Assembly (NCBI RefSeq): GCF_030813915.1
Contig: NZ_JAUSUJ010000015.1
Location: 62,001-126,000 of the forward strand
Source: Rhodoplanes tepidamans
GTDB taxonomy: Bacteria; Pseudomonadota; Alphaproteobacteria; Rhizobiales; Xanthobacteraceae
Length of the DNA stretch: 64,000 nt
Reading direction: 5' to 3'
Shown here: one piece after another, positions 7,497 to 51,632 of the stretch
Layout: every line of letters begins with the position of its first letter
Numbering within the stretch: the stretch's first letter is position 1
The notes under the pieces: model-generated
What the model was told of the DNA's origin: nothing
The model's input: the letters and a program-made list of their open reading frames with translations, nothing else
The model's database searches: none
Program-made: the position numbers and the translations under genes

Positions 7497-7500
<4 letters not shown>

Positions 7501-7976: not shown

Positions 7977-8012
7977 CCTGCATCCCCGCGCGATCGCGTC
8001 ATGTCCGGCCAT

Positions 8013-11301: not shown

Positions 11302-11427
11302 TCAGTCGACGCCGAAGGACGGGAAGACGAAGGCCAGGACCGTCAGCAGGGACGATCCGACCACGGCAGCGGTGGGGAGGGGGTTGGCCGCGACCAGGGT
11401 CAGCAGCGAAAATCCGAAGTCGTGCAT
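11302..11427 (-). CDS. Candidate 41-residue small membrane protein
   Basis: ATG 11427 opens a 41-codon frame ending at TGA (11302-11304). The predicted peptide starts MHDFGFSLL and is dominated by hydrophobic segments (about 6-14 and 20-36), with a Pro pair in the middle and a short FPSFGVD end, which is typical of small integral membrane peptides. GGGAC lies about 12 bases upstream. It stands alone between the GNAT-like island and glgA. No family is recognised. Hydrophobic codons in GC-rich DNA can arise by chance, so conservation would be needed to accept it. Confidence 0.4.
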   Translation of the reverse strand: MHDFGFSLLTLVAANPLPTAAVVGSSLLTVLAFVFPSFGVD

Positions 11428-11661
11428 CACGTCACGTCCCGAATGCTCGGCCTGCACGCAGCGGCCGAATGGCCGACCTAGGCGCGCGTCCGGGCTTGAA
11501 CGTGGTCTTTGCAGGCAGCCGTTTCTATCAGGGCCGCCTTATACCCGATCAGGGTTTCACGAGGATGAAGTTTCGTCCGCGACTCCGCGATGGCGCGGCG
11601 GCCATGCGTTCCGGGCAGGGCCCGGCCCGCGGCGCCCGGCCGGAGGCGCCGCCCGGCGCCG

Positions 11662-13122: not shown

Positions 13123-14381
13123 AACCGATCGATCATGTGCTGGGTGATCAGACAGATGCCGTCCTCGGTGCGGCGGAACCTGTCGGCGTCGAGTTCGGGG
13201 TCCTCGCCGACCACGAGCTTGGGCGGAATCTGGGTGCCCTTGTCGATCACGACGTTGCGCAGCCGGGCGCCGCGGCCGACGTCGACGGCCGGCAGGATCA
13301 CCGAGTTCTCGATGAAGGCGTAGGAGTGGACGCGGGCGCCGGTGCCGACCAGCGAGCGGCGGATCGAGGCGCCGGAGACGATGCAGCCCCCGGCGACCAG
13401 CGACGAGATGGCGGTGCCGCGCCGGCCCTGCTCGTCGTGCACGAACTTGGCGGGCGGGGTGATCTCGGCATAGGTCCAGATCGGCCAGTTGTGGTCGAAC
13501 AGGTCGAGCTGCGGCACCACGGCGGTGAGGTCGATGTTCGCCTCCCAGTAGGCCCCGATGGTGCCGACGTCGCGCCAGTAGACGGCCGCCTCCTCGCGCG
13601 AGCGTACGCAGGAGCGCGAGAACGGATGCGCCACCGCCTTCCCGTACTTGACCAGGTACGGGACGATGTCCTTGCCGAAGTCGTGCGTCGAATGCGGATC
13701 CTGGGCGTCGCGGCGGACCTGGTCGATGAGGAACTTGGTGTTGAAGACGTAGATGCCCATGCTGGCCAGCGCCTGGGTCGGGTCGCCGGGCATGTGGGGC
13801 GGCTTCGGCGGCTTCTCGACGAAGTCGACCACCACGTCGTTCTCGTCGACATGGACGACGCCGAAATGGACCGCCTGCTTGAGCGGCACCTCGATGGTGG
13901 CGATGGTGATGTCGGCCTTCTGCTCCACGTGCTGCTGGAGCATCGGCTCGTAGTCCATCTTGTAGACGTGGTCGCCGGCGAGCAGGACGATGAACTCGGG
14001 ATTGTAGCTCTCGATGATGTCGAGGTTCTGGTAGACTGCGTCGGCCGTGCCGGCGTACCAGCTCGCGCCGGCGATGCGCTGGCTGGCGGGCAGGATGTCG
14101 AAGCTCTCGTTCCGCTCGGGCCGGAAGAAGTTCCAGCCGCGCTGCATGTGGCGGATCAGGCTGTGCGCCTTGTACTGGGTCGCCACCGCGATGCGGCGGA
14201 TGCCCGAGTTGAGCGCGTTCGACAGCGTGAAGTCGATGATCCGGGACTTGCCGCCGAAATAGACCGCCGGCTTGGCGCGGTTGTCGCACAGCTCGTGCAG
14301 CCGGCTGCCGCGGCCGCCGGCCAGGACATAGGCCATCGCACTACGCGCGAGCGGCCCCGGCGTGGGGTGATCAATCGGCAC
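13119..14381 (-). CDS. glgC: Glucose-1-phosphate adenylyltransferase
   Basis: Makes ADP-glucose from ATP and glucose-1-phosphate, the committed step of glycogen synthesis. The 420-residue protein shows GGRGSRL near residues 22-28, [11 protein letters not shown], the catalytic [11 protein letters not shown] segment, the FVEKP sugar-binding motif and a C-terminal left-handed beta-helix. The GTG start at 14381 has GAGG about eight bases upstream. It ends overlapping glgA. In this family activity is allosterically set by carbon metabolites; the N-terminal Arg/Lys-rich nucleotide loop is intact, so the enzyme is probably functional. Confidence 0.96.
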
Positions 14382-14498
14382 GGAATTGCCTCGTTCGGGT
14401 TGAGAAACGCATCGACGAAATGTCCCGATCGAACCGCCCGCGCGGGCGCGACACGTCCCGCAGGTCCCGCGTCGCGGCGCCGCGCGCGGCGGCTCGGC

Positions 14499-37795: not shown

Positions 37796-39931
37796 TCACC
37801 CGCGCGGCGTCCTCATCGCCTCGGCGAGCGCACGGCGGTCGGCCAGAATGGAGAACGTCTCCTTCGGCGTCAGCAGCGTCGCGGCCTCGGCGAGGGTGTC
37901 GGCGTCGGCGACGCGGGCCAGCGCCACGACCAGCGGCACCTCGACGTCGCCCTTCCGGCGCGCCGGCTTGTCCTCCAGCAGCGCGAGGTGAGCCTCGAGC
38001 AGGGCCGGATTGGCGGCGAGCCGCAGCAGTGCCGGCGCCTCGGGGTCGGCCGGTGCCGCAGCGAGCTCCTGCGCCCGTACGAGCACGGCGGGCGGATCCC
38101 GCTCTTCGGGGATCAGCAGCAGGCCGATGCGGCGCAGGCCGCGTCCGACCCGCTCACTCGAGGTGACGGCGACGGTCGGGATCGCCAGCACGAGGCCGAC
38201 CACCACGGGCGTCATCCACAGAAGCAGCGGGGCCGACACCGCGTAGGCGGCGCCGCCGAGCAGCAGGCCGAGCACGACGTGCCAGCCATAGAGGCGCGTC
38301 AGCAGGCCGAAGCCGGCATGCGCCGCGTCGCGCTGCTGCGCCTGCCAGCCGGCATCGCGGCCGAGCAGGATCTCGCCGACGGCGCGGGACTGGAGCAGCA
38401 TCATGATCGGTGCGATCAGGCTGGTGACGAAGGTCTCGAGGACGACGCTGACGAAGGAGCGAACGACGCCGCCGGTGCCGCGGCGCTCGGACGTGCGCGC
38501 CATCGCGGCGATCCAGCCCAGAAGCTTGGGGACGACGAGGATGCCCATGGTGCCGGCGAACACCCAGGCGGCGCGGACCGGGTCCTGGGCGGGCCATTGC
38601 GGGAACAGCGAGAAACCGGACGGAAAGTACTCCGGCTTCACGAACTGCGCCTGCAGGGCGATCAGCAGCCCGACGAGCAGGAAGACCAGCCACAGCGGCG
38701 AGGTGATGTAGGAGCCGATGCCGGTGAGCAGATGCAGCCGCGACACCCAGTGCAGGCCGCGCGCCGGCAGCACGCCGAGATGCTGCAGGTTGCCCTGGCA
38801 CCAGCGGCGGTCGCGGATCGCGTATTCGGTAAGCGAGGGCGGGCACTCCTCGAAGCTGCCGCCGAGCGAGGGGGCCATGTGGACGCCCCAGCCGGCCCGC
38901 CGCATCAGCGCGGCCTCGACGAAGTCGTGGCTGAGGATGTGGCCGCCGAACGGCTTTCGCCCCTTGAGCAGCGGCAGCCCCGCCTGGCCGGCGAAGGCCT
39001 CGACCCGGATGATGGCGTTGTGGCCCCAGTAGTTGCTCTCGGCGCCGTGCCACCAGGCGATGCCGCGGGCGATCAGCGGGCCGTAGACGCGGCCGGCGAA
39101 CTGCTGGATGCGGGCGAACAGGGTCGTTCCGTTCAGCACCACCGGAAAGGTCTGGATCAGGCCGGCGCTGCGGTGCCGCTCCATCGCGGCGGCGAGCCGC
39201 ACCACGGTGTCGCCGGTCATCAGGCTGTCGGCGTCGAGCACCAGCATGTGGGCGTAGGCGCCGCCGAAGCGCGTCGTCCATTCGGCGATGTTGCCGGCCT
39301 TCCGCGCGACGTTCTCGCGGCGGTGACGGTAGTAGATGTTGTCGGCGCCGGTGCGCCCGAGGAGAGCCAGGAACGCCGCCTCCTCGCGGATCCAGACGTC
39401 CGGGTCGGTCGTGTCGCTGAGGACGAAGACGTCGAAATGCGCGAGCCGGCCGGTCTCGGCGATCGATTCGAAGATCGCCTGCAGGCGCGACATCACGCGG
39501 TGCGGATCCTCGTTGTAGGTCGGCAGGAGCACGGCGGTGCGGGTCGTCAGCTCCGGCAGCGCCGCCGCCGTGTCGATGCCGAGCGTCCGGTCCGGCCCGG
39601 CCAGGATGGCGACGAAGCCGACCACGCTGCTGACCAGCGAGAAGGCGATCCAGGCGAACAGGGAGACGAACAGCCCGAGCACGGTCGCTTCGGGCGGGGT
39701 CAGGCCCTGCACCTGCAGCACCTGGTACATCTCGTGGGCGGCGCCGGCGGTGAGGAGCGCAGTGCCGCCGAACACGACGAGCCGCCGCAGCCAGGTCCTG
39801 GGCGGCCGCTCGGGGCGCGGTGCCGCCGCGCCGGCCGGCCGCCACAGCGACTGCTCCGGCATGGCGAGCGGCCGCTCCGGCGGCAGGCTCGGGCGTGGCG
39901 GCTCGGGACGGATCGCGACCGCGTCGTGCAT
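37796..39931 (-). CDS. opgH: Osmoregulated periplasmic glucan glucosyltransferase
   Basis: The 711-residue inner-membrane GT2-type transferase builds the beta-glucan backbone from UDP-glucose and exports it. It has N-terminal and C-terminal clusters of membrane helices and the catalytic residues in LLPTYNEDP, LDADSLM, DFVEAALM and RRWCQGNLQH. The length is shorter than the roughly 850 residues of E. coli MdoH, with an abbreviated N-terminus. It starts one base after opgG, so both are translated from one message. Confidence 0.94.
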   Translation of the reverse strand: MHDAVAIRPEPPRPSLPPERPLAMPEQSLWRPAGAAAPRPERPPRTWLRRLVVFGGTALLTAGAAHEMYQVLQVQGLTPPEATVLGLFVSLFAWIAFSLVSSVVGFVAILAGPDRTLGIDTAAALPELTTRTAVLLPTYNEDPHRVMSRLQAIFESIAETGRLAHFDVFVLSDTTDPDVWIREEAAFLALLGRTGADNIYYRHRRENVARKAGNIAEWTTRFGGAYAHMLVLDADSLMTGDTVVRLAAAMERHRSAGLIQTFPVVLNGTTLFARIQQFAGRVYGPLIARGIAWWHGAESNYWGHNAIIRVEAFAGQAGLPLLKGRKPFGGHILSHDFVEAALMRRAGWGVHMAPSLGGSFEECPPSLTEYAIRDRRWCQGNLQHLGVLPARGLHWVSRLHLLTGIGSYITSPLWLVFLLVGLLIALQAQFVKPEYFPSGFSLFPQWPAQDPVRAAWVFAGTMGILVVPKLLGWIAAMARTSERRGTGGVVRSFVSVVLETFVTSLIAPIMMLLQSRAVGEILLGRDAGWQAQQRDAAHAGFGLLTRLYGWHVVLGLLLGGAAYAVSAPLLLWMTPVVVGLVLAIPTVAVTSSERVGRGLRRIGLLLIPEERDPPAVLVRAQELAAAPADPEAPALLRLAANPALLEAHLALLEDKPARRKGDVEVPLVVALARVADADTLAEAATLLTPKETFSILADRRALAEAMRTPRG

Positions 39932-39932
39932 G

Positions 39933-41498
39933 TCAGGCCGTCCAGCGATAGAGCCAGGTCTCGGTGAGGCGCTCCTCGCCGCGCATCAGCAGCGCGCGCA
40001 GCTCGACCACGGTCTCCCGCTCCGGCGCGAGCTCGAACGACATCCGCCAGCCGCCCTCGACCGGATTCGGCTGGGTGACGACGTTCAGGATCCGGCCCTT
40101 GTCGGTCTCGACGAGGCCACGCACCGCCGCCGGATCGAGCCGCTTCAGCGCGTCGCCCGTGATGTCGAGCACGAAGCGGCGCGTCCCGTCCGGCCCGGCG
40201 CCCGCGCGCGTCCGCGCGAAGACGGCGAGCGGCGGCGTGCCGGGCTTCCCGGCGCCCCAGTGCAGCCGGTACGTGAACCAGTACTCGCCCTTGGCGGAGA
40301 GCCGGTCCTTCGGCCGCCAGAACGCGACGATGTTGTCGTGGATCTCCTCCCGGGTCGGAATCTCCACCAGCTGGGTCGCGCCCGTGCCCCAGTCGCCGAT
40401 CGGCTCGACCCACAGGCTCGGCCGCGTCTCGAAGCGCGATTCCAGATCCTCGTAGGCACGGAAGTCGCGTGCCCGCTGCAGCAGGCCGAAGCCGCGCGGA
40501 TTGGTGTCCTCGAAGATGCTGATCTGCAGGTCGGCGGGATTGTGCAGCGGCCGCCAGATCTCCTCGCCGCGGCCGTTGCGGATGGCGAGGCCGTCGGAGT
40601 CGTGCACGGCCGGGCGGAAGTCGTCGACGCCGACGCGGTCGTTCGGGCCGAAGAAGAACATGCTGGTGCAGGTGCCGATGCCGGGCAGATCGAGGTCGGT
40701 GCGCGGATAGAGCGTCATCTCGACGTCGAACACGGTGGTCTCGCCGGGCCGGATGGTGAAGCGATAGGCCGCCGCGGCGCTCTTCGAATCGAGCAGCGCG
40801 TGGACGACGATCGAGCCGGTGTGCGGCGGCGGCTTCTCGATCCAGAAGGCGCGGAACGCCGGGAACTCCTCGCCGCGCGGGTCGGCCGTCGCGATGGAGA
40901 GGCCGCGGGCGGAGAGGCCGTAGGTCTGGCCTTTCGCCACCGCGCGAAAATAGCTGGCGCCGAGGAAGACGGCGACCTCGTCGTAATAGTCCGGGCGGTT
41001 GATCGGCGTGTGCAGGCGGAAGCCGGCGAAGCCGACGCGCGCGTCGGAGGGCGGCGGCGGCACGGCGCCGAAGTCGAACAGGTCGGGCGAGTAGAGGATC
41101 GGCCGCGCCTTGCCGTCCCTCACCTCGTGGATGGCGACCCGATCCGTGAACAGGAAGCCGCGATGGAAGAACTGCGCCTCGAACGGCAGGCCTTCGCCGC
41201 GCCACAGCGCGCGATCCGGCTTGAACCGGATGGTGCGGTACTTGTCGTAGTCGAGATCGGTCAGGCTCGGCGGCAGGCTGGTGTCGGGTTGCTGAAACGG
41301 CTTCTCGGCGAGCGTCCGCGCGGTGCGCCGCACGACATTGGCGTCGAACGGCAGCTCGACCGGCTGCTGCTGCGGCTGGCCCTTGTCCTGCGCGTACGCC
41401 GGCCCGGCGCGTCCCGCGCCTGCCAGCACGAACGGCAGCGCCACCGACCCGGCCAGCAGGTCGCGGCGACTCGTCTGATGCGTGGTGATGGTACCCAT
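39933..41498 (-). CDS. opgG: Periplasmic glucan biosynthesis protein OpgG/OpgD type
   Basis: The 521-residue periplasmic protein acts on nascent beta-glucans from OpgH; members of the family add or shape branches. A twin-arginine signal (TSRRDLLAG) precedes the A-rich stretch ending AYA, so export of the folded protein via Tat is likely, as in OpgD. The MdoG body shows NVVRRTARTLAEKPF, YFRAVAKGQTYGLSARGL and NRVGVDDFRPAVHDSDGL-like segments. ATG 41498 is chosen; TTG 41528 would add ten residues. The E. coli counterpart with Tat export is OpgD, so the symbol is by operon position. Confidence 0.9.
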   Translation of the reverse strand: MGTITTHQTSRRDLLAGSVALPFVLAGAGRAGPAYAQDKGQPQQQPVELPFDANVVRRTARTLAEKPFQQPDTSLPPSLTDLDYDKYRTIRFKPDRALWRGEGLPFEAQFFHRGFLFTDRVAIHEVRDGKARPILYSPDLFDFGAVPPPPSDARVGFAGFRLHTPINRPDYYDEVAVFLGASYFRAVAKGQTYGLSARGLSIATADPRGEEFPAFRAFWIEKPPPHTGSIVVHALLDSKSAAAAYRFTIRPGETTVFDVEMTLYPRTDLDLPGIGTCTSMFFFGPNDRVGVDDFRPAVHDSDGLAIRNGRGEEIWRPLHNPADLQISIFEDTNPRGFGLLQRARDFRAYEDLESRFETRPSLWVEPIGDWGTGATQLVEIPTREEIHDNIVAFWRPKDRLSAKGEYWFTYRLHWGAGKPGTPPLAVFARTRAGAGPDGTRRFVLDITGDALKRLDPAAVRGLVETDKGRILNVVTQPNPVEGGWRMSFELAPERETVVELRALLMRGEERLTETWLYRWTA

Positions 41499-41670
41499 CC
41501 TCGGTGAATGGCCGACCCTGCCCGACAACCGGACGCGGGCACACCGGTTCCATCGCGCAGGTAGCCGGCGGATGAATGACGGTAATTTGGTCCAGATGCG
41601 CAGGAAGCGTGACGCCGCTGCCGCAGAGATGAGCGGGCGTTAAGGTGTGCGCATCACGTGCGGACGGACG

Positions 41671-42588
41671 TCACTCGCGCATGCCTTCGATCGAGCGTAC
41701 CAGCTGCTCGGCGAACACGGCGGCCGGGACCGGCAGGTTGCGGCTGCGCAGCTGACCGACGACGAGATCGGCGGCCGGCACGTCGCGCGGATCGAGCACG
41801 CGGGCGACGACGCCCGGCTCGGCGCCGCGCGGCGCGAGGTCGGCGCCGATCTCGACCTGGAAGGAGAGCACGCGGTCACGCCGCACCAGCCCGCGCAGCA
41901 TCTCGAACGAGTTCGACTCGGCGACGATGCGCAGCGCGATGCCGGTGCGGGCACAGGCGGCATCGAGAAGCTGTCGGCCGCCGAGCGAGCGGTCGGCGAC
42001 CGCGCAGGCGTGGCCGACGCAGTCGCGCAGCCGCACCGGCTCGTCCGGCGGCGTCGCGGCGAGCGGATGGTCCTCGGGCATCAGCACGGCGAGACGTTGC
42101 GGCGCCGTCATCAGCGGCCGGAAGCTCGCATGGAAGGACGGCCGGTAGACGGCGACGAGGTCGACCTCGTAGGCCTCGAGCGCCGCCATGGCGCGGTCGT
42201 GGTCGGCCACCCGCACGTCGAAGGCGACATAGGGGTGCCTGGCCCGGAAGGTCGCGATCTCGCGCGGCAGGAAGTCGTAGGCGAGCGCCTGGCTGCAGGC
42301 GAGGCTCACGGTGCCGCGCTTGAGCCCGCGCAGATCCTCGATCTGCGACTTCATCCGCTCGACGTCGCCGGCCTGCTCGCGCAGATAGCGCACGAACACC
42401 TCGCCGGCCGCGGTGAGGCGCACGCCGCGCGGCTTGCGCTCGAACAGGGCGGCGCCGAGCTCCTCCTCCAGATCCATGATCCGGCGGTTGACGGCCGAGG
42501 CCGTGACGGCGAGCCGCTCGGCCGCCTTGCGGATCGACCCGGTGCGGGCGACCTCGTCGACATAGCGCAGGATTCGCAGGTGACGCAT
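41671..42588 (-). CDS. LysR family transcriptional regulator
   Basis: The 305-residue regulator has an N-terminal winged HTH (GSIRKAAERLAVTASAVNRRI) and a LysR substrate domain (SLACSQALAYDFLP, DVRVADHDRAMAAL). It is divergent from the ring-catabolism operon starting at 42922, the usual arrangement for a LysR activator and its target. The ligand is probably an intermediate of that pathway. The 333-base intergenic region contains a repeat and an AT-rich inverted repeat that may be its site. Confidence 0.92.
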   Translation of the reverse strand: MRHLRILRYVDEVARTGSIRKAAERLAVTASAVNRRIMDLEEELGAALFERKPRGVRLTAAGEVFVRYLREQAGDVERMKSQIEDLRGLKRGTVSLACSQALAYDFLPREIATFRARHPYVAFDVRVADHDRAMAALEAYEVDLVAVYRPSFHASFRPLMTAPQRLAVLMPEDHPLAATPPDEPVRLRDCVGHACAVADRSLGGRQLLDAACARTGIALRIVAESNSFEMLRGLVRRDRVLSFQVEIGADLAPRGAEPGVVARVLDPRDVPAADLVVGQLRSRNLPVPAAVFAEQLVRSIEGMRE

Positions 42589-42720: not shown

Positions 42721-42758
42721 AAACGGGCGGTAGCGACCGAGTGAAGCCTTTTCGGCAA

Positions 42759-42779
42759 CGCTAGATCAAAAAATCAGCG
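42759..42779. promoter_or_regulatory. Possible LysR operator
   Basis: CGCTAGAT-CAAAAA-ATCAGCG is an inverted repeat with one bulged base and an AT-rich centre, in a region otherwise very GC-rich, between the LysR gene and its presumed target operon. No exact T-N11-A match was found, so this is tentative. Confidence 0.3.
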
Positions 42780-42921
42780 GCAGAAGTCAACGCCGGCATT
42801 CGCTAGCGTGATCGAGCCGGGTCGCGGAGGGTTCCGTGGTTCGGCACGGATGTTGCCTGCAAGCCGTTCTTTTCACGTCCGAAACGCCACCCCGCCACGC
42901 CGCTCCAGCCCCGCTCGGACC

Positions 42922-43716
42922 ATGCCGAACCCCGCCCCCGTCCCCTCCTCCAGCATCGCCCACACCAGCCTGGTGCGGCCGCGGCGGCCGGAGACCATCG
43001 TCCGCTTCGCGGCGGGGAGCGGCGGCACGGTCGAGATCGATCTCGGCCGCACGGCGCTGCTGGTGGTCGACATGCAGAACGACTTCCTGCATCCGGACGG
43101 GTGGTTTCCGCAGGCCGGGATCGCGACGGCGGCGGCACTCGGAATCGTCCCCGGCATCGATGCGCTCGCCGCGGCGCTGCGCGGGGCCGGCGCGCCCGTG
43201 ATCTTCGTCAACTGGGGCGTGCGGGCCGACGTCGCCAACCTGCCGGCCGGCCTGATCGACAAGGGCCGCTGCGGCGGCACCCGGCCCGGTTACGCCGACC
43301 TCTCGCCCGCCGGCCGCGGCGACATCCTGGTCCAGGGCCAGTGGGGCGCCGCGACCATCGATGCGCTCGCCGTCGCGCCGGGCGACCTCGTCGTCCACAA
43401 GCACCGCTTCTCGGGCTTCCACGACAACGAGCTCGACTCGATCCTGCGCGCCCGCGACGTGACGACCCTCCTGTTCGCCGGCATCAACACCGACCGCTGC
43501 GTCTTCGCGACCCTCACCGACGCGAGCTTCCGCGGCTACGACTGCGTGCTGCTGTCCGACCTCTGCGCGACCGTGTCGCCGCCGAGCGTCACCGACACGA
43601 TCCTGTTCCTCACCGACCTTCTCTACGGCGCCGTCGCCAGCGGCGCCGCGCTCACTGCCGTGCTCGCCGGGGCCGGTCCCTCCGCCTCCCCCATCCCACA
43701 GGAGACTTCCCGATGA
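42922..43716 (+). CDS. Isochorismatase-family cysteine hydrolase (biuret/ureide hydrolase-like)
   Basis: The 264-residue hydrolase has the family triad Asp50 (LLVVDMQNDF), Lys160 (VVHKHRFSGF) and Cys193 (GINTDRCVFAT), so it is a true amidohydrolase rather than isochorismatase. The HKHRFSGFHDNELD and NTDRCV segments resemble biuret hydrolase, RutB-type ureidoacrylate hydrolase and N-carbamoylsarcosine amidase, all of which cut carbamoyl amides. Because a cyanuric-acid-hydrolase/barbiturase family gene is in the same operon, a linear ureide such as biuret is the best guess. It is the first gene; its stop overlaps the ATG of the binding protein (ATGA). Confidence 0.85.
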   Translation: MPNPAPVPSSSIAHTSLVRPRRPETIVRFAAGSGGTVEIDLGRTALLVVDMQNDFLHPDGWFPQAGIATAAALGIVPGIDALAAALRGAGAPVIFVNWGVRADVANLPAGLIDKGRCGGTRPGYADLSPAGRGDILVQGQWGAATIDALAVAPGDLVVHKHRFSGFHDNELDSILRARDVTTLLFAGINTDRCVFATLTDASFRGYDCVLLSDLCATVSPPSVTDTILFLTDLLYGAVASGAALTAVLAGAGPSASPIPQETSR

Positions 43717-44744
43717 GGCTCGCCTCCCTGCGCACCGCCCTGATGGCGGCCGCGGCGCTCGCTGCCGCCGCCCTGCCCTCCGCCGCCTCGGCGGAGACCA
43801 AGCTGAAGATGGTGCTGAACTGGAAGTACCAGGGCCCGCAGGGCTTCTTCTTCGTCGCCCAGGACAAGGGGTACTTCAAGGCCGAGGGCCTCGACGTGAC
43901 CATCGACCAGGGCGACGGCTCGGCCGCGGCGGTGCCGAAGGTGGCGAGCGGCGCCTACGACATCGGCTTCGGCGATCTCAACGCGCTGATCGAGTTCGCC
44001 GCCAAGAAGCCCGAGGAAGCGCCGGTCGCCGTCTATGTGATGTTCAACCGGCCGCCCTTCACGGTCGCCGTGAAGGCGGATAGCCCGATCAAGACCCCGA
44101 AGGACTTCGAGGGCAAGACGCTCGGCGGCGCGGCCAACGACGGCGCCCTGAAGCTGTTCCCGGCGCTGTGCAAGTCGGCCAAGATCGACTGCTCCAAGGT
44201 GAACATCACCAACATGGCGCCGAACCTGCGCGAGCAGATGCTGATGCGCGGCCAGGTCGACGGCGTGTTCGGCTACGTCAACACGATCCGCTTCTCGGCC
44301 AAGCTGATCGGTGTGAAGGACGACCAGATCCGCTTCATCAACTACGGCGACTACGGCATGGACCTCTACTCCAACGCCATCATCGTCTCGAAGAAGCTGG
44401 TGAAGGAGAATCCGGAGGCCGTGAAGGGCTTCCTGCGCGCGCTGAACAAGGGTGTGATCGAGTCGCTGAAGGATCCCAAGGCGTCGGTCGCGTCGGTCGC
44501 CAAGCGCGAGCCGCTGATCAAGTCCGACGTCGAGCTCGAGCGCTTCGACGCCACCGTGAAGGACGAGATGAACCACCCCGAGATCGCCAGGATCGGCCTC
44601 GGCAGCATCGACCCGGCGCGACTGAAGACCTCGATCGACATTCTGGTCGAGGCCAACGCCCTGCCCCGCACGCCGGCGACGAGCGAGATCTTCGATCCTT
44701 CGTTCCTCCCGCCGGCGTCCGAGCTGCCGAAGAAGCTGTTCTGA
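43713..44744 (+). CDS. ABC transporter substrate-binding protein (NMT1-like)
   Basis: The 343-residue periplasmic protein has a signal peptide ending ASA near residue 27 and NMT1/SsuA-like motifs NWKYQGPQGFFFVAQDKGYF, GDGSAAAVPKVASGAYDIG and NMAPNLREQMLMRGQVDG. AGGAGA precedes the ATG, which overlaps the hydrolase stop. It is the capture component of the importer whose ATPase and permease are three and four genes downstream. The ligand is presumably the ring compound degraded by this operon. Confidence 0.9.
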   Translation: MRLASLRTALMAAAALAAAALPSAASAETKLKMVLNWKYQGPQGFFFVAQDKGYFKAEGLDVTIDQGDGSAAAVPKVASGAYDIGFGDLNALIEFAAKKPEEAPVAVYVMFNRPPFTVAVKADSPIKTPKDFEGKTLGGAANDGALKLFPALCKSAKIDCSKVNITNMAPNLREQMLMRGQVDGVFGYVNTIRFSAKLIGVKDDQIRFINYGDYGMDLYSNAIIVSKKLVKENPEAVKGFLRALNKGVIESLKDPKASVASVAKREPLIKSDVELERFDATVKDEMNHPEIARIGLGSIDPARLKTSIDILVEANALPRTPATSEIFDPSFLPPASELPKKLF

Positions 44745-44790
44745 CATTCGTCCCGGGCGCGGCTGTCCGATCCGCGCCCCTCTCTCCCCT

Positions 44791-44888
44791 GTCGTGCTCC
44801 GCGAAGGCGGAGCACCCAGTTCGCTGCAGCGCCGCTGGTGACCCGTTGGCGCAGGTGGATACCGGGTCGCCCGCCTTCGCGGACGACG
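44791..44888. repeat. Palindromic element, family C
   Basis: TGTCGTGCTCCGCGAAGGCGGAGCAC near one end and CGCCCGCCTTCGCGGACGACGA near the other; CCGCGAAGGCGG and CCGCCTTCGCGG are reverse complements. It fills the spacer between the binding-protein gene and the SDR gene. Confidence 0.75.
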
Positions 44889-44935
44889 ACCACCGAGATG
44901 CCGTCCTCTTAACCAACCCGACAAGAAGACTCCGC

Positions 44936-45727
44936 ATGAATCTCGATCTCGCCGGCCGCGTCGTTCTGGTCACCGGGCCCGCCAAGGGGATGGGCGCCGC
45001 CATCTCGCTCGCCTTCGCGGCCGAAGGCTGCCGGCTCGCGCTGGTCGGCCGCGACACGGCCGCGATCGCGCCGGTCGCCGAGGCGGCGAAGGCGAGCGGC
45101 GTCGCGGCGATCGTGATCGCCTGCGACGTGACGGACGCGGCCCAATGCGACGCGGCGGCCGCATCGGCGCGCGAAGCCTTCGGGAAGGTCGACATCCTGG
45201 TGAACGTCGCCGGTGGCTCCGGGCCGATCGGCAAGACCGGCGCCGAGACGACGCCGGAGGAGTTCGACGAGATCGTCACCCTCAACATGGGCGGCTGCTT
45301 CAACACGATCCGTGCCGTGCTGCCGGACATGATGGCGCGGCGCTACGGCAAGGTCGTCAATGTCGGCGGCACCTTCGGGCTGCGCGGCCGGGCCGGGCGG
45401 CTCGCCTACTCGGCGTCCAAGTGGGGCCTGCGCGGCATCACCAAGAGCTTCGCGCTGGAGGCGGGCCCCTACAACATCAACGTCAACTGCGTCGCGCCCG
45501 GCATGGTCGAGGGGCCGCGCTTCCGCGACAAGGTGTGCGCCAACCTCGCCGCGAAGCACGGCATCTCGGTCGAGGAGGCGGCGCGGCTGCACGCCGAGGA
45601 CTACGCGCTCAGGCGCGTCTCCACCGACGCGGACGTCGCCAATGCCTGCCTGTTCCTGGCGAGCGACGTGTCCCGCCAGATCACCGGCGTCGACCTGCCG
45701 GTCGACGGCGGCTGGGCGATGCTGTGA
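44936..45727 (+). CDS. SDR family oxidoreductase
   Basis: The 263-residue NAD(P)-dependent short-chain dehydrogenase has the nucleotide loop TGPAKGMGAA (14-23), NVAGG, and the active-site Tyr and Lys in YSASKWG. The residue pair that is normally Ser-Ser before the loop reads VGGTFG here, so the catalytic serine may be replaced by Thr or lost. The C-terminus SRQITGVDLPVDGGWAML is typical. Its role in the pathway is unclear: it could oxidise or reduce a ring or ring-opening product, in place of, for instance, a uracil or dihydropyrimidine dehydrogenase. Confidence 0.88.
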   Translation: MNLDLAGRVVLVTGPAKGMGAAISLAFAAEGCRLALVGRDTAAIAPVAEAAKASGVAAIVIACDVTDAAQCDAAAASAREAFGKVDILVNVAGGSGPIGKTGAETTPEEFDEIVTLNMGGCFNTIRAVLPDMMARRYGKVVNVGGTFGLRGRAGRLAYSASKWGLRGITKSFALEAGPYNINVNCVAPGMVEGPRFRDKVCANLAAKHGISVEEAARLHAEDYALRRVSTDADVANACLFLASDVSRQITGVDLPVDGGWAML

Positions 45728-45750
45728 CCTGTACCGTGAGGGAGACCACC

Positions 45751-47205
45751 ATGACAGCCGATCTCGTCATCCACGGCGGAACCGTGGTCACCGACACCAC
45801 GACATTCGCGGCGAGCGTCGCGATCAAGGACGGCCGCGTGCTCGCGGTCGGCGCCCGCGAGGCGATGCCGGAGGCCGCCGAGCAGCTCGATGCGACCGGC
45901 CTGCACGTGCTGCCCGGTGCGATCGACGTGCACGTGCATTTCCGCGAGCCCGGCTACACCCACAAGGAGGACTTCGGCACCGGCACGGCGGCGGCGGCGT
46001 TCGGCGGCGTCACCACGGTGTTCGACATGCCGAACGTGATCCCGGCGACCGGCACGGCCGAGGCGCTGGCCGCCAAGCACAGGCTCGCCTCCGAGAAGGC
46101 CTATGTCGACTACGGCCTCTACGGGCTGCTCGGCGAGGACACCATCGCCCACGTGCCGGACCTCGTCGCCGGCGGCGTGATCGGCTTCAAGCTCTACATG
46201 GGCAACACCTTCGGCAACATCCCGTCGCCCACCACGGGGGGCATGCTGGAGGCGTTCGAGGTGGTGGCGCCGACCGGCAAGCGCGTCTCGCTGCATGCCG
46301 AGACCGCGTCGATCATGGCGCGGCGCGAGGCGCGCCTGCGCGCGGCGGGCCGCAAGGATCCGCTGGCGCATCTCGCGGCGCGGCCGGCCGTCGTCGCCGT
46401 CGAGGCGGTGGCCCGCGCCGCCATCCTGTCCGAGTGGACCGGCTGCCGCATCCACGTCCTGCACATCTCCTCGGCCGAGGAGCTGCGGCCGCTCGCGGAA
46501 GCAAAAGCGCGCGGCGTCGACATCACGGGCGAGACCTGCCCGCAATATCTGCTGCTCGGCGCCGAGGACTACGGCCGCATCGGCCCGGTGATCCGCGTCA
46601 ACCCGCCGGTGCGCGAGGCGCGCAACCAGGCGCCGCTGTGGGCGGCGCTCGCGAGCGGCGTCGTCGACATGATCGCCACCGACCACGCCCCGCACATCCC
46701 CGACGAGAAGGTGCGCGACGACATCTTCACGGTGGACTGCGGCTTCCCGGGCGTCGAGACCCAGATGCCGCTGATGCTCACCGAGGTGGCGGCCGGCCGC
46801 ATGTCGATCAGCGACTATGTGCGGTGGAGCGCCGTCAACCCGGCGAAGTGCTGGGGCCTCTATCCGCGCAAGGGCCACCTGCAGCCCGGCGCCGACGCCG
46901 ACATCGCCATCGTCGATCTCGCACGGCGCTGGACCATCGACGACGCGAAACTCCAGTCGCGGGCCAAGATCACGCCGTGGCACGGGCGCGGCGTCACCGG
47001 GCTGCCGGTCCACACGCTGGTGCGCGGCCGCTTCGTGATGAAGGACCGCGCGCTGGTCGAGAGCGCACGCGGGACGGGCCGTTCGGTCCACACGATCCAG
47101 GAGATGCCGGCGCCGCGCGTCGCGAACCCGGACAGCACCATGACCGAGATCGTCAGGATCCCGGCCGCCTCGCGCGGCGATGCCGCCACCGGAGCCGCCG
47201 CATGA
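45751..47205 (+). CDS. Allantoinase/dihydroorotase-like cyclic amidohydrolase
   Basis: The 484-residue binuclear metal hydrolase opens cyclic amide or ureide rings. Ligands are present: His61 and His63 (DVHVHFREPG), carbamylated Lys147 (GFKLYMG), His182 (LHAET), His238 (VLHISS) and Asp311 (ATDHAPH). The FREPGYTHKED motif and FKLYMG favour the allantoinase/dihydroorotase branch over dihydropyrimidinase. GGGAG precedes the ATG. Its stop overlaps the ATPase start (ATGA). The natural substrate may be a hydantoin, dihydropyrimidine or allantoin-like ring. Confidence 0.88.
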   Translation: MTADLVIHGGTVVTDTTTFAASVAIKDGRVLAVGAREAMPEAAEQLDATGLHVLPGAIDVHVHFREPGYTHKEDFGTGTAAAAFGGVTTVFDMPNVIPATGTAEALAAKHRLASEKAYVDYGLYGLLGEDTIAHVPDLVAGGVIGFKLYMGNTFGNIPSPTTGGMLEAFEVVAPTGKRVSLHAETASIMARREARLRAAGRKDPLAHLAARPAVVAVEAVARAAILSEWTGCRIHVLHISSAEELRPLAEAKARGVDITGETCPQYLLLGAEDYGRIGPVIRVNPPVREARNQAPLWAALASGVVDMIATDHAPHIPDEKVRDDIFTVDCGFPGVETQMPLMLTEVAAGRMSISDYVRWSAVNPAKCWGLYPRKGHLQPGADADIAIVDLARRWTIDDAKLQSRAKITPWHGRGVTGLPVHTLVRGRFVMKDRALVESARGTGRSVHTIQEMPAPRVANPDSTMTEIVRIPAASRGDAATGAAA

Positions 47206-48095
47206 GCGCCGCCGTCGTCCCGTTCGGCCAGCAACCGGCAGCGCCGCCGCCGTCCGCCGGTCCCGCGGCCGAGCCGATCCATCTCGACTCCTATGTGGAG
47301 CTCGAGCGCACCACGGTGACGTACGGCCGCGAGCCGAACGTCGTGCGGGCGCTCGCCGAGACGAGCCTCCGCATCGCCAAGGGCGACTTCGTCGCGCTGG
47401 TCGGCCCGAGCGGCTGCGGCAAGTCGACCATCCTCAAGCTGGTCGGCGGGATTCTTCGCGCGTCCTCCGGCTACGTCTACGTCGCCGGCCGCGAGGTCGA
47501 CGCCGAGCCGGTGCGCATCGGCATGGCGTTCCAGAACCCGACCATGCTGCCGTGGCTGACGATCCGCGACAACGTGATGATGCCGCTGAAGATCGTGCCG
47601 CCGTTCCGGGGCGAGTACCGCAGGAAGCGCAAGACCGAGTTCCGCGACCGCGTCGAGGCGCTGCTCGCCCAGGTCGGCCTCAAGGGCTTCGGCGACAAGC
47701 ATCCCTGGCAGCTCTCCGGCGGCATGCTGCAGCGCGCCTCGCTGTGCCGGGCGCTGGTGCACGATCCGCAGCTCCTGCTGCTCGACGAGCCGTTCGGCGC
47801 GCTCGACCAGTTCACCCGCGAGGAGCTGTGGTCGATCATGCAGCAGCTCTGGATCACCCGGCGGCCGACCGTGCTGCTCGTCACTCACGACCTGCGCGAG
47901 GCCGGCTATCTCGCCAACCGCATCTGCGTGATGAGCGCGCGACCCGGCCGGATCGTCGACGACCGCGTGTTCGAGGCGCCGCGCCCGCGCACCCTCGCCA
48001 TGACCTACGAGCCCGACTTCGTCGCGATGACCCAGCGCCTGCGCGAGCTGATCGTCGAGGCGCGAACCGACGAGCCGGCGGGATCGACGGCATGA
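47202..48095 (+). CDS. ABC transporter ATP-binding protein
   Basis: The 297-residue ATPase has Walker [11 protein letters not shown]-loop AFQNPTMLPW, signature LSGGMLQRASL, Walker [14 protein letters not shown] and VTHDLREA. The MLPW motif is shared with the ATPase at 30014, so both importers are of the nitrate/sulfonate/taurine-like group. It has a 25-residue Pro/Ala-rich N-terminal extension. It overlaps the cyclic amidohydrolase stop and is followed by a repeat, then the permease. Confidence 0.92.
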   Translation: MSAAVVPFGQQPAAPPPSAGPAAEPIHLDSYVELERTTVTYGREPNVVRALAETSLRIAKGDFVALVGPSGCGKSTILKLVGGILRASSGYVYVAGREVDAEPVRIGMAFQNPTMLPWLTIRDNVMMPLKIVPPFRGEYRRKRKTEFRDRVEALLAQVGLKGFGDKHPWQLSGGMLQRASLCRALVHDPQLLLLDEPFGALDQFTREELWSIMQQLWITRRPTVLLVTHDLREAGYLANRICVMSARPGRIVDDRVFEAPRPRTLAMTYEPDFVAMTQRLRELIVEARTDEPAGSTA

Positions 48096-48111
48096 CCCCG
48101 GACACCGATCC

Positions 48112-48203
48112 CGTCATGGCCGGGCTCGTCCCGGCCATCCACGACCTCCCCCGCGGCAACACGGCAAGAGCGTGGATGTCCGCGACGAGCGCGGGCACGA
48201 CGG
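48112..48203. repeat. Palindromic element, family B copy 3
   Basis: CGTCATGGCCGGGCTCGTCC-GGCCATCCACG on the left and GTGGATGTCCGCGACGAGCG with CACGACGG on the right. It lies between the ATPase and permease genes of the importer, inside the transcript. Confidence 0.75.
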
Positions 48204-48246
48204 CGCAGAGCGCCATCGAACGGCCCACAGCCCCGAGGATCGCATC

Positions 48247-49020
48247 ATGAGCTCCACCCTCAAGCGCAAGATCGCCTCGGTCGTGCTGATCGTCGGGCTG
48301 TTCGTCGTCTGGGAGGTGCTGTGCCTCGCCTTCGGGGTGAGCGACACGGTGCTGCCGCGGCCGAGCCAGATCTTCGTGACGCTGTGGCAGCGCTTCCCGG
48401 CGCTGTGGCCGCACACGGTGCAGACCCTCTACACGACGCTGCTCGGCTTCGTGCTCGGGGTGGGCATCGGCATCGTCATCGGCGTGCTGATCGGCTGGTC
48501 GAAGCTCGCCTATGACGTCGCCTATCCGCTGCTCGTCGGCTTCTCGTCGATCCCCAAGGTCGCCGTCGTGCCGATCTTCGTCCTGTATTTCGGCGCCGGC
48601 ACCGTGCCGGCCGTGCTCACCGCGCTGATCATGAGCATCTTCCCGGTGGTCGTGAACGTCGCGACCGGGCTCGCGACCACCGAGCCGGAGCTCGAGGACG
48701 TGATGAAGACGCTGCGGGCGACCAAGTTCGACATCCTGTGGAACGTCGGCCTGCCGCGCGCCATGCCCTATTTCTTCGCCTCGCTGAAGGTCGCCGTGAC
48801 GCTGTCCTTCGTCGGCTCGGTGATCTCCGAGACGGTGGCGTCGAACCGCGGCATCGGCAACATGATGATGATCGCCTCGTCGTCCTTCGACGTGCCGCTC
48901 GTCTTCGCCGGCCTGTTCATCCTGGCGGCGCTCGGCATCCTGCTCTACGGCGTCTTCTCGCTGATCGAAGGCCGCGTCACCGGCTGGGCCCACCGCAAGA
49001 CCGAGTTCGCGATGGGATGA
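48247..49020 (+). CDS. ABC transporter permease
   Basis: The 257-residue membrane protein has about six helices and the BPD coupling loop near NVGLPRAMPYFFASLKVA. It forms the channel of the importer with the ATPase upstream and the binding protein at 43713. It begins after a family B repeat. Codon use and orientation match the operon. Confidence 0.92.
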   Translation: MSSTLKRKIASVVLIVGLFVVWEVLCLAFGVSDTVLPRPSQIFVTLWQRFPALWPHTVQTLYTTLLGFVLGVGIGIVIGVLIGWSKLAYDVAYPLLVGFSSIPKVAVVPIFVLYFGAGTVPAVLTALIMSIFPVVVNVATGLATTEPELEDVMKTLRATKFDILWNVGLPRAMPYFFASLKVAVTLSFVGSVISETVASNRGIGNMMMIASSSFDVPLVFAGLFILAALGILLYGVFSLIEGRVTGWAHRKTEFAMG

Positions 49021-49051
49021 GGCGCAGCCGCGCCGGGCAGGAGTCCTCGCT

Positions 49052-50500
49052 ATGACCACCCTCGATGCCGCCGTGGTGATCGCCGGACCGGATGGAGCGA
49101 CGCTGAGCGATCGGGCGATCAGGCTCGCGGAGGGCCGGATCGCGGGGCTGGCGCCGGCGGCCGCGCCTCTCGGCGGCGGAAGCCTCGTGATGCCGGCCCT
49201 GGTCAACGCGCACGACCACGCGCGCGTGGTGCGCTCCAGCCAGATCGGCAATTTCGACGTCGCCCTGGAGGCGTGGCTGCCGCATCTCGCCGCCGTCCCG
49301 GCGGTCGATCCCTGGCTCGCCGCCGCGGTGGCGTTCGGGCGCAGCGCCCGCGCCGGCATCGCGGTCGAGATGGCGCACTACACCCGCGTCCAGGGCCTGA
49401 CCGGCTATCTCGACGAGGCGCGCGCGGTGGCCAAGGCGGCCCGCGACGTCGGCATCAGGATCGCCTTCGCGGTGCAGTGCCGCGACCGCAACCCGCTGGT
49501 CTACGGCCCGCATGGCGACATGCTCCGGCGCCTCTCGCACGCCGCCTGCGCCTGCGTGAGCGAGACGCTCCTGCGCGCGCCGCTGCCGGGGGCCGAGCAG
49601 ATCGCCCTGGTCGAGGCGACGGCCGCGGCGATCGCCGGCGACGGCGTCACGGTGCAGTACGGGCCGGCCGGGCCGCAGTGGTGCAGCGACGACCTCCTGG
49701 CCCGCATCGGCGAGGCCTCGGCGGCGCACGGGCGGCGCGTGCACATGCATCTGCTGGAGAGCCGCTACCAGCGCGCCTGGGCCGACGCCACCTATCCGCA
49801 CGGGCTGCTGAACCACCTGGACGGCCTCGGGCTGGTGAACGCGCGCGTCTCGTTTGCGCACGGCACCTGGCTGCGGCCCGACGAGATGGAGCTGATCGCC
49901 GAACGCGGCGCCACCATCGTCGTCAACACCTCGTCGAATCTGGTGCTGCGCTCGGGCATCGCGCCGCTCGCCGAGATGCTGCGGCGCGGCTGTCGGGTCG
50001 CGATGGGGCTCGACGGCGTCGCGCTCGACGAGCAGGAGGACCCGCTCGCCGAGATGCAGCTCGCCTATCTGCTCCACAAGGGCGAGGGCTTCGCCACCAC
50101 GATGTCGCGCGACCAGCTGCTGCGCTTCGCGCTCGCCGCCGGGCGCTTCGCCGTGCTGGGCGAGGACGCCGGCGGCACGGTGGCGCCGGGGGCGCCGGCC
50201 GATCTCCTGGTGCTCGACTGGGCGACGCTCGCGGCCGACCGTCTCGACGACACGGTGCCGCCGCTGGAGACGCTGCTCGCCCGGGCCCGCCGCCGGCACG
50301 TCAGGGATCTGTTCGTCGCCGGCCGGCAGGTGGTGCGCGACGGCGCGGTCACCGGCGTCGACCTGCCGGCGCTCGAGACCGAGCTGCTCGCCGTCCTCAA
50401 GGCCCGCTTCGGCTCGACCGCCGAGATCCGCGCCGCCCTGCCCGAGCTGCGCGCCGCCCTCGGTGCCCACTACGGCGCCGGCACGTTCATCTGTTCCTGA
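49052..50500 (+). CDS. Amidohydrolase (cytosine/guanine deaminase-like)
   Basis: The 482-residue metal-dependent hydrolase has His54 and His56 (NAHDHAR), His233 (HMHLLES, with Glu236), His270 (FAHGTWL) and Asp321 (MGLDGVALDEQEDP), the ligand set of mononuclear deaminases such as cytosine, guanine and triazine deaminases. The odd NAHDHA, with Asp between the two His, is noted. It lies between the permease and the ring-opening amidohydrolase, so it may deaminate a heterocycle to the form that the next enzyme opens. Confidence 0.85.
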   Translation: MTTLDAAVVIAGPDGATLSDRAIRLAEGRIAGLAPAAAPLGGGSLVMPALVNAHDHARVVRSSQIGNFDVALEAWLPHLAAVPAVDPWLAAAVAFGRSARAGIAVEMAHYTRVQGLTGYLDEARAVAKAARDVGIRIAFAVQCRDRNPLVYGPHGDMLRRLSHAACACVSETLLRAPLPGAEQIALVEATAAAIAGDGVTVQYGPAGPQWCSDDLLARIGEASAAHGRRVHMHLLESRYQRAWADATYPHGLLNHLDGLGLVNARVSFAHGTWLRPDEMELIAERGATIVVNTSSNLVLRSGIAPLAEMLRRGCRVAMGLDGVALDEQEDPLAEMQLAYLLHKGEGFATTMSRDQLLRFALAAGRFAVLGEDAGGTVAPGAPADLLVLDWATLAADRLDDTVPPLETLLARARRRHVRDLFVAGRQVVRDGAVTGVDLPALETELLAVLKARFGSTAEIRAALPELRAALGAHYGAGTFICS

Positions 50501-50534
50501 TTCAGCTGGTCCCGATCACATCCGAGAGTCTTCC

Positions 50535-51632
50535 ATGTCCCGCCGCGCCTATGTCCATCGCATTTCCGCCGCCGCACCCGACGACGTCTCGGGCATCGAG
50601 GCGGCGATCGCCGCCGGTCGCATCGACCCGAAGGGCATCGTCGCCATCTTCGGCAAGACCGAGGGCAACGGCTGCGTCAACGACTTCGCCCGCGGCTTCG
50701 CCACCCAGTCGCTCGGCCTGATGCTGCAGCGATACATGAGCGCCGAGGCGGCGCACGCCGTCTGCCTCGTCATGTCGGGCGGCACCGAGGGCGGGATGTC
50801 GCCGCACTGGACCGTGTTCGAGCGCCGCGACACCGACGAGACCGCGACAGGCGCGGCGCTCGCCATCGGCCGCACCCGCACGCCGGTGCTGCCGTTCCCG
50901 GCGCTCGGCCGGGTCGCCGAGGTCGACATGGTGGCGGAGGGCGTGCGCGCGGCGATGGCCGACGCCGGCATCGCGGATCCGGCGGACGTGCATTTCGTCC
51001 AGATCAAGTGCCCGCTGCTCACGCTCCAGCGCATCGGCCAGGCGGAGGCGATGGGCGGGACCGTCGCGACCCGCGACACGCTGAAGTCGATGGGGCTGTC
51101 GCGCGCCGCCAGCGCGCTCGGCGTGGCGGTCGCGCTGGGCGAGGTTTCTCGCGACGCGATCACGGACGACAGGATCGCGTCCGACTGGTCGCTGTGGTCG
51201 GGCCGCGCCTCGTGCTCGTCGGGCATCGAGCTGCTCGACCACGAGATCGTCGTGATCGGCACCTCGCCGGCCTGGGTCGGTCCGCTCACCGTGGATCACG
51301 CCGTGATGGCCGACGGCATCGACGTGGAGCCGGTGCGGGCGGCGCTGCGCCGCCTCGGCTTTTCGGCCGACGGCCAGCTCGCGCCGGCCGAGCGCGACCG
51401 GCTCGTCGCGCTCCTGTCCAAGGCCGAGGCGAGCCACGACGGGCGCCTGCGCGGCAATCGCCACACCATGCTGGACGACTCCGACATCTCGGCGACCCGC
51501 CACGCCCGCGCCTTCGTGTGCGGGGCGCTCGCCGGCCTAGTCGGCCACGCCGAGATCTACGTCTCGGGCGGCGCCGAGCACCAGGGCCCGGACGGCGGCG
51601 GCCCGGTGGCGGTGATCGCCGCGCGCGCGTGA
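50535..51632 (+). CDS. Ring-opening amidohydrolase, cyanuric acid hydrolase/barbiturase family
   Basis: The 365-residue protein matches the AtzD/TrzD/barbiturase family, which has a fold of three repeated units with Ser-Lys dyads. All three are visible: Lys41 (GKTEGNG) with Ser81 (MSGGTEGG), Lys158 (VQIKCPLL) with a serine of ASCSSG (226-229), and Lys296 (SKAEAS) with Ser344 (VSGGAEHQGPDGGG). These enzymes hydrolyse cyanuric acid to carboxybiuret or barbiturate to ureidomalonate. Length is normal. Which of the two it uses cannot be told from sequence alone. It is the last gene of the operon that starts with the ureide hydrolase. Confidence 0.9.
   Translation: MSRRAYVHRISAAAPDDVSGIEAAIAAGRIDPKGIVAIFGKTEGNGCVNDFARGFATQSLGLMLQRYMSAEAAHAVCLVMSGGTEGGMSPHWTVFERRDTDETATGAALAIGRTRTPVLPFPALGRVAEVDMVAEGVRAAMADAGIADPADVHFVQIKCPLLTLQRIGQAEAMGGTVATRDTLKSMGLSRAASALGVAVALGEVSRDAITDDRIASDWSLWSGRASCSSGIELLDHEIVVIGTSPAWVGPLTVDHAVMADGIDVEPVRAALRRLGFSADGQLAPAERDRLVALLSKAEASHDGRLRGNRHTMLDDSDISATRHARAFVCGALAGLVGHAEIYVSGGAEHQGPDGGGPVAVIAARA

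Follow-up and report, generated by a model that had tools for sequence, protein, structure and literature searches.

The operon and its flanking features

In this paper we looked at a gene set in the Rhodoplanes tepidamans genome that ends in a gene for what is almost certainly a cyanuric acid hydrolase (CAH) and that may serve the scavenging of nitrogen from small heterocycles. The source genome consists of 63 contigs, and the stretch that was analyzed, which is called the window below, comprises 64,000 nucleotides of one of them (C15:62001-126000). By an open reading frame (ORF) check of the window, eight frames lie on the plus strand between positions 42922 and 51632. They open at the places and stand in the order that the original prediction had given, the Pfam families agree with it, and the two ATGA overlaps that it had claimed at 43713 and 47202 are both present in the sequence. 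Its eight genes were correct, but it had omitted a divergent LysR-type gene and a conserved element between this gene and the operon. The features are as follows:

41671-42588, minus strand: divergent LysR-type regulator, 61% identical to the Azorhizobium caulinodans orthologue
42745-42781, unstranded: conserved intergenic element with a GCC-N5-GGC dyad, probable LysR operator (12-mer GCCTTTTCGGCA in LysR intergenic regions)
42922-43716, plus strand: RutB-like cysteine hydrolase of the isochorismatase family (Pfam Isochorismatase; RutB 119 bits, BiuH 114 bits)
43713-44744, plus strand: NMT1/THI5-type substrate-binding protein of an ATP-binding cassette (ABC) transporter (Pfam NMT1, 152 bits)
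44936-45727, plus strand: short-chain dehydrogenase/reductase (SDR) with Gly replacing the usual catalytic Ser (adh_short, 177 bits)
45724-47205, plus strand: cyclic amidohydrolase with an allantoinase fold and dihydroorotase-like Arg and Asn (Pfam Amidohydro_1; TIGR03178 383 bits, TIGR00857 319 bits)
47202-48095, plus strand: ABC transporter ATPase (ABC_tran, 108 bits)
48247-49020, plus strand: ABC transporter permease (BPD_transp_1, 95 bits)
49052-50500, plus strand: TRZ/ATZ-type metal-dependent amidohydrolase, probable deaminase (Amidohydro_1, 117 bits; predicted fold; co-occurrence with CAH)
50535-51632, plus strand: almost certainly a cyanuric acid hydrolase of the AtzD/TrzD family (Pfam Amido_AtzD_TrzD; NF052395 569 bits, cut-off 360)

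For the SDR, ATG 44936 is the most likely start, being common to all 18 aligned orthologues (window included). For the cyclic amidohydrolase GTG 45724 is preferred, with ATG 45751 as an alternative, and for the permease ATG 48247 is preferred, its frame also being open from GTG 48172. The preferred starts of the remaining genes are 42922, 43713, 47202, 49052 and 50535.

The ring-opening enzyme

The last protein had been placed in the cyanuric acid hydrolase/barbiturase family, and its Pfam family confirms this and can be narrowed to CAH. The NF052395 score is not discriminating by itself, since a barbiturase-type paralogue in the same genome also passes that model (455 bits). The protein is 68% identical to the A. 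caulinodans CAH (PDB 4nq3), with all three Ser-Lys dyads, Arg52 and Arg188 identical. Cyanuric acid is a substrate of the A. caulinodans enzyme, whose R188K and R188Q variants lost activity 5,000- and 23,000-fold, according to the accessible text of PMC4051656. The phylogenetic placement that had been proposed as a check was run, and 4nq3, an assayed enzyme, groups with the operon CAHs of Xanthobacter, Aquabacter and Azorhizobium with a support of 100/100. From these comparisons, the protein encoded at 50535-51632 is almost certainly a cyanuric acid hydrolase.

Another possible function for the operon is oxidative pyrimidine breakdown via barbiturate, with the last gene encoding a barbiturase; the protein family would be the same and the first gene is RutB-like. 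However, position 188 is Asn both in barbiturase 5hwe and in the paralogue on contig C9, identity to 5hwe is 41% as opposed to 68% to 4nq3, and the genome has a separate barbiturase-type gene (L003, C9:48000-67999, at 9621-10715 of that locus) whose product, a second ring-opening amidohydrolase, is 66% identical to 5hwe. A barbiturase identity for the last gene is ruled out by Arg188, and the barbiturate route as a whole is very improbable. The neighbors of the C9 gene include ORFs resembling caprolactamase A and B subunits, an amidase, a CynR-like regulator and an FAD-dependent hydroxylase-like ORF, all of which score under the NCBIfam cut-offs.

The A. caulinodans enzyme also gives the operon an experimental anchor. 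In a family genome (G409) that encodes a CAH 100% identical to 4nq3 over 350 residues, the order is LysR (divergent), cysteine hydrolase, NMT1, SDR, cyclic amidohydrolase, ATPase, permease, second NMT1, deaminase and CAH. These genes are 52-77% identical to the eight genes of the window, and the second NMT1 protein is 46% identical to the single one of the window.

Conservation and co-occurrence of the gene set

We refer to NMT1-SDR-cyclic amidohydrolase-ATPase-permease as the core. Eighty CAH loci were kept from a scan of named genomes with the last protein as the query, a sample that is therefore selected for CAH, and the core lies within 10 kb of the CAH gene in 17 of them; about 46 of the 80 belong instead to the classical Rhizobium type, in which BiuH-like hydrolases and different transport genes are found. 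Sixteen of these 17 CAH-linked loci have the divergent LysR gene (the sequence of the remaining one, L027, begins about 650 bases before the core), five the cysteine hydrolase and nine the deaminase. Eleven loci carry a second NMT1 gene 3' of the permease, which is present neither in the window nor in the other six. The CAH gene follows the permease, the deaminase or the second NMT1 gene in 16 loci and lies inside the core in one (L012). The full set of eight window genes is also present in L004, L132 and L181 and in genome G115. The nearest CAH locus among the named genomes belongs to a Rhodoplanes metagenome-assembled genome, whose CAH is 89% identical.

Two further surveys, both free of this selection for CAH, addressed co-occurrence. 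One, at the order level, covered 397 genomes, with a cyclic amidohydrolase threshold of E ≤1e-170. Here 25 genomes have the cyclic amidohydrolase and 67 a CAH-family gene, and the latter is found in 23 of the 25 as opposed to 44 of the 372 others. Scores in this cyclic amidohydrolase set cluster at about 770-934 and at 595-645 bits, and members of the lower group often have other neighbors. The other survey, at the family level, covered 391 genomes with a closer threshold (E ≤1e-200). The linkage count took in those 46 of the 127 genomes with a CAH-family match whose best match reaches 59% identity to 4nq3, which leaves aside weaker matches such as those of barbiturase type. A cyclic amidohydrolase at this threshold is found in 59 genomes; in 35 of these it lies within 10 kb of such a CAH gene, and four have such a CAH elsewhere in the genome. 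Core and CAH co-occur even when they are not linked on the chromosome. Of the 47 sampled genera of the family, 18 contain close relatives of the cyclic amidohydrolase, and because of this spread, together with the 35 of 59 genomes with close linkage, the gene order is far beyond chance. An uptake-and-hydrolysis operon with a ring-opening amidohydrolase, as originally predicted, is therefore conserved across relatives, and the possibility raised then, that the genes might not stay together in any relative, does not hold.

The deaminase shows a similar association. Counting matches of at least 600 bits only (33 of 48 genomes), it is present in 33 of the 397 order genomes; a CAH-family gene accompanies it in 27 of the 33, as opposed to 40 of the 364 genomes without the deaminase. 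When the genomes with the cyclic amidohydrolase are excluded, the proportions are 16 of 22 and 28 of 350. In two genomes without a cyclic amidohydrolase at E ≤1e-170 (G070 and G106) the deaminase gene lies 32 bases from the CAH gene. Fisher p values for the CAH tables range from 4e-12 to 1e-31, with the relatedness of the genomes ignored.

The cysteine hydrolase and the fate of biuret

The first gene had been described as a ureide-type cysteine hydrolase. It belongs to the right superfamily and keeps the Asp-Lys-Cys triad, but the residues by which the related BiuH and TrtA hold their substrates are absent. Its scores are far below the cut-offs of both the RutB (378 bits) and the BiuH model (370). 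RutB is the nearest solved relative, with a K-x-R-x-SGF stretch in common, and the stretch at the active Cys is DRC in the operon protein and NVC in RutB. As described in the accessible parts of PMC5806882 and PMC7948467, a second Lys and a Gln bind biuret in BiuH and triuret in TrtA. In BiuH these are Lys145, the second Lys of KPGKG, and Gln215, in MQG or AQG; the available text of PMC5806882 reports Lys145 variants (Ala, Arg and His) that are effectively inactive and a KM raised more than 25-fold in Gln215Ala and Gln215Glu. Both residues, whose TrtA counterparts are Lys132 and Gln202, are absent from all eight aligned operon copies (window included). We therefore set aside a biuret or triuret hydrolase function; the protein is probably not a biuret hydrolase. 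Perhaps it strips a carbamoyl group from a ureido compound, and by analogy it might act on 1-carboxybiuret, whose chain length equals that of the RutB substrate.

These results bear on the option of a classical cyanuric acid mineralization, in which CAH yields biuret, the first gene encodes a biuret hydrolase and the rest serves transport and side reactions. In its favor are the well-supported CAH, a first gene of the expected superfamily and the one allophanate hydrolase of the genome, at C24:53801-55471 (786 bits, cut-off 511), so that the earlier statement that no allophanate hydrolase is present holds for the operon but not for the genome. Yet the BiuH score and the two missing binding residues argue against it, as does the absence of the first gene from 12 of the 17 CAH-linked operon copies, and we regard this option as improbable. 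Two amidases were considered as AtzE-type substitutes and rejected: one on contig C22, with 195 bits to the allophanate hydrolase model and standing beside ORFs read as GatB- and GatC-like, and one on contig C9, with 230 bits and under the AtzE cut-off of 426, no search aimed at AtzE having been made.

Two other regions of the genome contain RutB-like cysteine hydrolase genes. A paralogous set (L137, C3:78000-97500) contains one together with NMT1 and ABC genes, an ornithine-cyclodeaminase-like gene, a 52% identical cyclic amidohydrolase and, by similarity only, a possible further amidohydrolase. The second region (L176, C5:265000-284500) shows at its positions 3569-14478 one run of xanthine-dehydrogenase-like subunits, binding protein, permease, RutB-like cysteine hydrolase, ATPase, regulator and amidohydrolase; it is perhaps a purine-type operon, the genes having been named by eye from the starts of the ORFs and the cysteine hydrolase alone aligned.

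The cyclic amidohydrolase and the SDR

Analysis of the protein encoded at 45724-47205 supports the earlier description as an allantoinase-like hydrolase in its overall fold, but its putative substrate site carries an Arg and an Asn as in dihydroorotase. The protein passes both TIGR03178 (allantoinase, cut-off 358 bits) and TIGR00857 (cut-off 279), and allantoinase 3hm7 ranks first both over the whole length and by the predicted fold (predicted local distance difference test score, pLDDT, 75.9). The substrate-site stretch reads HVHFREPGYTHKED...MPN in the operon protein and HVHLREPGGTHKED...MPN in CAD, which contains the dihydroorotase domain; HVHFREPG and MPN are as in CAD, whereas 3hm7, the sole allantoinase in this comparison, has Asn for the Arg after HxHF, and MPLN. 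In dihydroorotase this Arg and Asn hold the carboxylate of dihydroorotate. The corresponding Arg74 and Asn104 are invariant in 18 of 18 orthologues. When the N-terminal stretch is searched alone, CAD (60.7 bits) and 3hm7 (60.5) are nearly equal, and the score does not decide.

Classical SDRs have a catalytic Ser, Tyr and Lys at known positions. In all 18 aligned orthologues of the operon SDR the residue at Tyr-13 is Gly instead of the catalytic Ser, while Tyr and Lys are kept; the PDB relative 2et6 has Ser at this position of the alignment. The set that was taken as the background of this comparison consists mostly of operon-SDR orthologues and is hence no proper control. Taken together, the residues of the two proteins suggest that SDR and cyclic amidohydrolase may act on a ring that bears a carboxylate. 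As a separate observation, four loci of one family, f16 (L125, L126, L127 and L129), contain a cyclic amidohydrolase gene with two SDRs that have Gly for Ser, along with further genes whose products were named, in L125, as a pyroglutamyl-peptidase-like protein, a Gfo/Idh oxidoreductase and a 2OG-Fe(II) oxygenase.

One option for such a ring is oxonate or hydroxonate (5-aza-orotate; urate oxidation products), where the SDR would set the redox state, the dihydroorotase-like enzyme would open the dihydro ring and CAH would open cyanuric acid arising along this route. Oxonate is converted to cyanuric acid by xanthine or aldehyde oxidase. The dihydroorotase-like Arg and Asn and the SDR without the usual catalytic Ser are consistent with such a route, and so is a xanthine-dehydrogenase-type molybdenum (Mo) subunit, named by Pfam, that lies at 6682-9063 of L134 between CAH and a cyclic amidohydrolase homologue. 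In L135 a protein of similar length occupies the same position (6211 onwards), the Pfam name having been obtained for the L134 copy only. This arrangement hints at a ring hydroxylation that ends in cyanuric acid. Nevertheless, the evidence is indirect, the overall fold is nearest to allantoinase, the N-terminal stretch is nearly equidistant from CAD and 3hm7, and nothing on this route was found in the literature searched; the oxonate scheme seems quite unlikely to us. The broader idea, that the operon serves as a natural entry into cyanuric acid, an s-triazine, for example from oxonate or hydroxonate made by urate oxidation, is also unlikely, if slightly less so.

Importer, deaminase and regulation

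The PDB sequence matches of the NMT1 protein include the formylaminopyrimidine-binding protein (3ix1) and THI5, which gives only a hint of pyrimidine-like ligands. The nearest NCBIfam models of the ATPase are TauB, SaoA and a nitrate type, all below cut-off.

The product of 49052-50500 had been called a deaminase-like amidohydrolase, and its TRZ/ATZ-type fold and metal-site motif agree with this. Its model (pLDDT 88.4) has adenosine-type and isocytosine deaminases, AtzA and TrzN as the nearest folds. The motif of amidohydrolase deaminases comprises HxH, HxxE, H and D; the last three are invariant and HxH is present in at least 90% of 15 aligned rows, one of them truncated. The protein reached no NCBIfam cut-off. 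By its fold and its association with CAH, it is probably a deaminase that acts on an amino-triazine or amino-pyrimidine.

The compared regions have a block of about 40 bases in common, located between the LysR gene and the operon. Among 18 LysR intergenic regions (window included), the 12-mer listed above occurs with at most one mismatch in nine, with two in two and with three or four in seven; the Xanthobacter (two mismatches) and A. caulinodans (three) elements retain a dyad with changed arms. A single copy of this operator-like site was found in the genome, adjoining the LysR gene. A simple palindrome scan for LysR boxes returned none in 16 of the 17 regions, and the conserved element came from shared 10-mers. 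Its conservation makes 42745-42781 a probable, still putative, LysR operator. Elsewhere in the window, at 37796-41528 on the minus strand, two ORFs resemble by eye a glucan glucosyltransferase and its periplasmic partner, which we take to be of the MdoH/MdoG type.

A proposed route to ammonia

Based on these data, we propose that the genes form a LysR-controlled nitrogen-scavenging operon for small N-heterocycles, with two branches to ammonia, a proposal to which we would give about an even chance. The NMT1-type ABC importer would take up the N-heterocycle. In the first branch the TRZ/ATZ-type protein would deaminate an amino-substituted oxo-triazine to cyanuric acid, which is the simplest reading of its fold and its co-occurrence with CAH. 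CAH would then open cyanuric acid to carboxybiuret, which would lose CO2 to give biuret, a step strongly suggested by the assayed orthologue in the same operon. In the second branch the substrate would be a related ring, probably a carboxylated one. The SDR may shift its redox state, the cyclic amidohydrolase may open it to a ureido compound, and from this the RutB-like cysteine hydrolase may free the carbamoyl nitrogen. Both branches would end in ammonia, and the allophanate hydrolase located elsewhere in the genome could complete the first one. Of the originally predicted route from a heterocycle through a ureide to ammonia, the CAH step is thus placed, but a single linear pathway is unproven.

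Several results weigh against this proposal. The roles and substrates of importer, SDR, cyclic amidohydrolase, deaminase and cysteine hydrolase are deduced. No biuret hydrolase above cut-off was found in the genome, which leaves a gap between biuret and allophanate. One family member of A. caulinodans has neither CAH nor barbiturase activity according to the accessible text of PMC3758960; G409 holds two family members, the second 49% identical, and either could be the inactive one. The relatedness of genomes, which the co-occurrence statistics ignore, may matter here, and one of the 23 order genomes with both genes (G206) was counted on a weak CAH-family match of 247 bits. The deaminase occurs with no CAH in 6 of its 33 order genomes. 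Finally, in 20 of the 59 core-bearing genomes of the family no CAH reaches 59% identity to 4nq3; nine of these have a more distant family member and eleven none at E ≤1e-60. Some single-contig genomes, too, carry the core while their core locus lacks CAH, from which it follows that CAH is dispensable for the core.

A less probable alternative that draws on these last counts is that two or more independent modules for nitrogen scavenging share a regulator and an importer. SDR, cyclic amidohydrolase and cysteine hydrolase would act on an unrelated ureide or hydantoin, and CAH and deaminase would be add-ons for cyanuric acid. Besides the 20 core genomes without a close CAH, CAH-family genes are commonly found without the core (44 of 67 order genomes). 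Four loci of genus g4 (L111, L182, L183 and L187) combine the core, an acetamidase/formamidase-type gene beside the permease and the deaminase, with no CAH nearby; Pfam named the L111 copy of the amidase-type gene, and the other three were assigned by similarity. On the CAH tree operon membership changes four times (3-4 in bootstraps), only one of these changes being forced by well-supported branches. What speaks against independent modules is that core and CAH co-occur even when unlinked, and that the CAH gene keeps its place behind the permease, deaminase or second NMT1 gene in 16 of 17 loci and sits within the core in the other.

Returning to the two-branch proposal, the g4, L134 and L135 loci show modularity too, and the cysteine hydrolase and deaminase are each missing from part of the CAH-linked loci. 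The original prediction is borne out in that the operon is conserved, but its genes form a modular set and not an obligatory route of eight steps. The operon is confirmed and conserved, with the CAH step placed firmly and the other steps deduced around it.

Comparison with known systems

The original prediction had called the route perhaps undescribed, and no account of the gene set was found in the literature searched, a weak negative since subscription papers were mostly outside its coverage. Cyanuric acid occurs naturally and is occasionally formed by oxidative DNA damage, according to the available part of PMC3758960, and the partner genes may reveal where bacteria encounter it. An assayed CAH within a conserved operon provides a gene set, a cultured host (A. 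caulinodans) and a candidate operator for tracing a natural compound. If the natural route into cyanuric acid, which we consider unlikely, were true, CAH would be the last step of an old alphaproteobacterial purine-waste pathway and not a relic revived by herbicides.

The CAH itself belongs to a known enzyme family, and the operon around it varies on known CAH operons. In reductive pyrimidine catabolism a reductase, a dihydropyrimidinase and a ureidopropionase act in turn, and the SDR, cyclic amidohydrolase and ureido-hydrolase of the window would share this logic, although they come from other families or subfamilies, as far as their sequences tell. The first gene product has its nearest solved relative in RutB, the ureidoacrylate amidohydrolase, and differs from it at the active Cys and by its model score, as described above. 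A close counterpart among known systems is the CAH of A. caulinodans ORS 571 (PDB 4nq3, PMC4051656), which has the same active-site residues and whose gene ends the same operon; the accessible text of that paper does not describe the gene neighbors.

The Rhizobium-type operon of CAH, BiuH and allophanate hydrolase resembles the window operon in having a CAH of the same alphaproteobacterial group and a dedicated importer. Its representative in Rhizobium sp. LC145 (L079) has BiuH (418 bits, NCBIfam cut-off 370), a second BiuH/TrtA-like hydrolase, an allophanate hydrolase (812 bits, cut-off 511) and other transport genes, none of which the window operon has; the latter adds the SDR, the cyclic amidohydrolase and NMT1-type transport. 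At 15743-21032 of L079 the two kinds of operon meet, as LysR-NMT1-SDR of the core, where the locus ends, and an NMT1-deaminase pair adjoin the classical genes. The atzDGEHF genes of Pseudomonas sp. ADP (PMC6219798, in its accessible part) likewise form a single operon for cyanuric acid degradation, from which the window operon differs by having no AtzE, AtzG, AtzH or AtzF.

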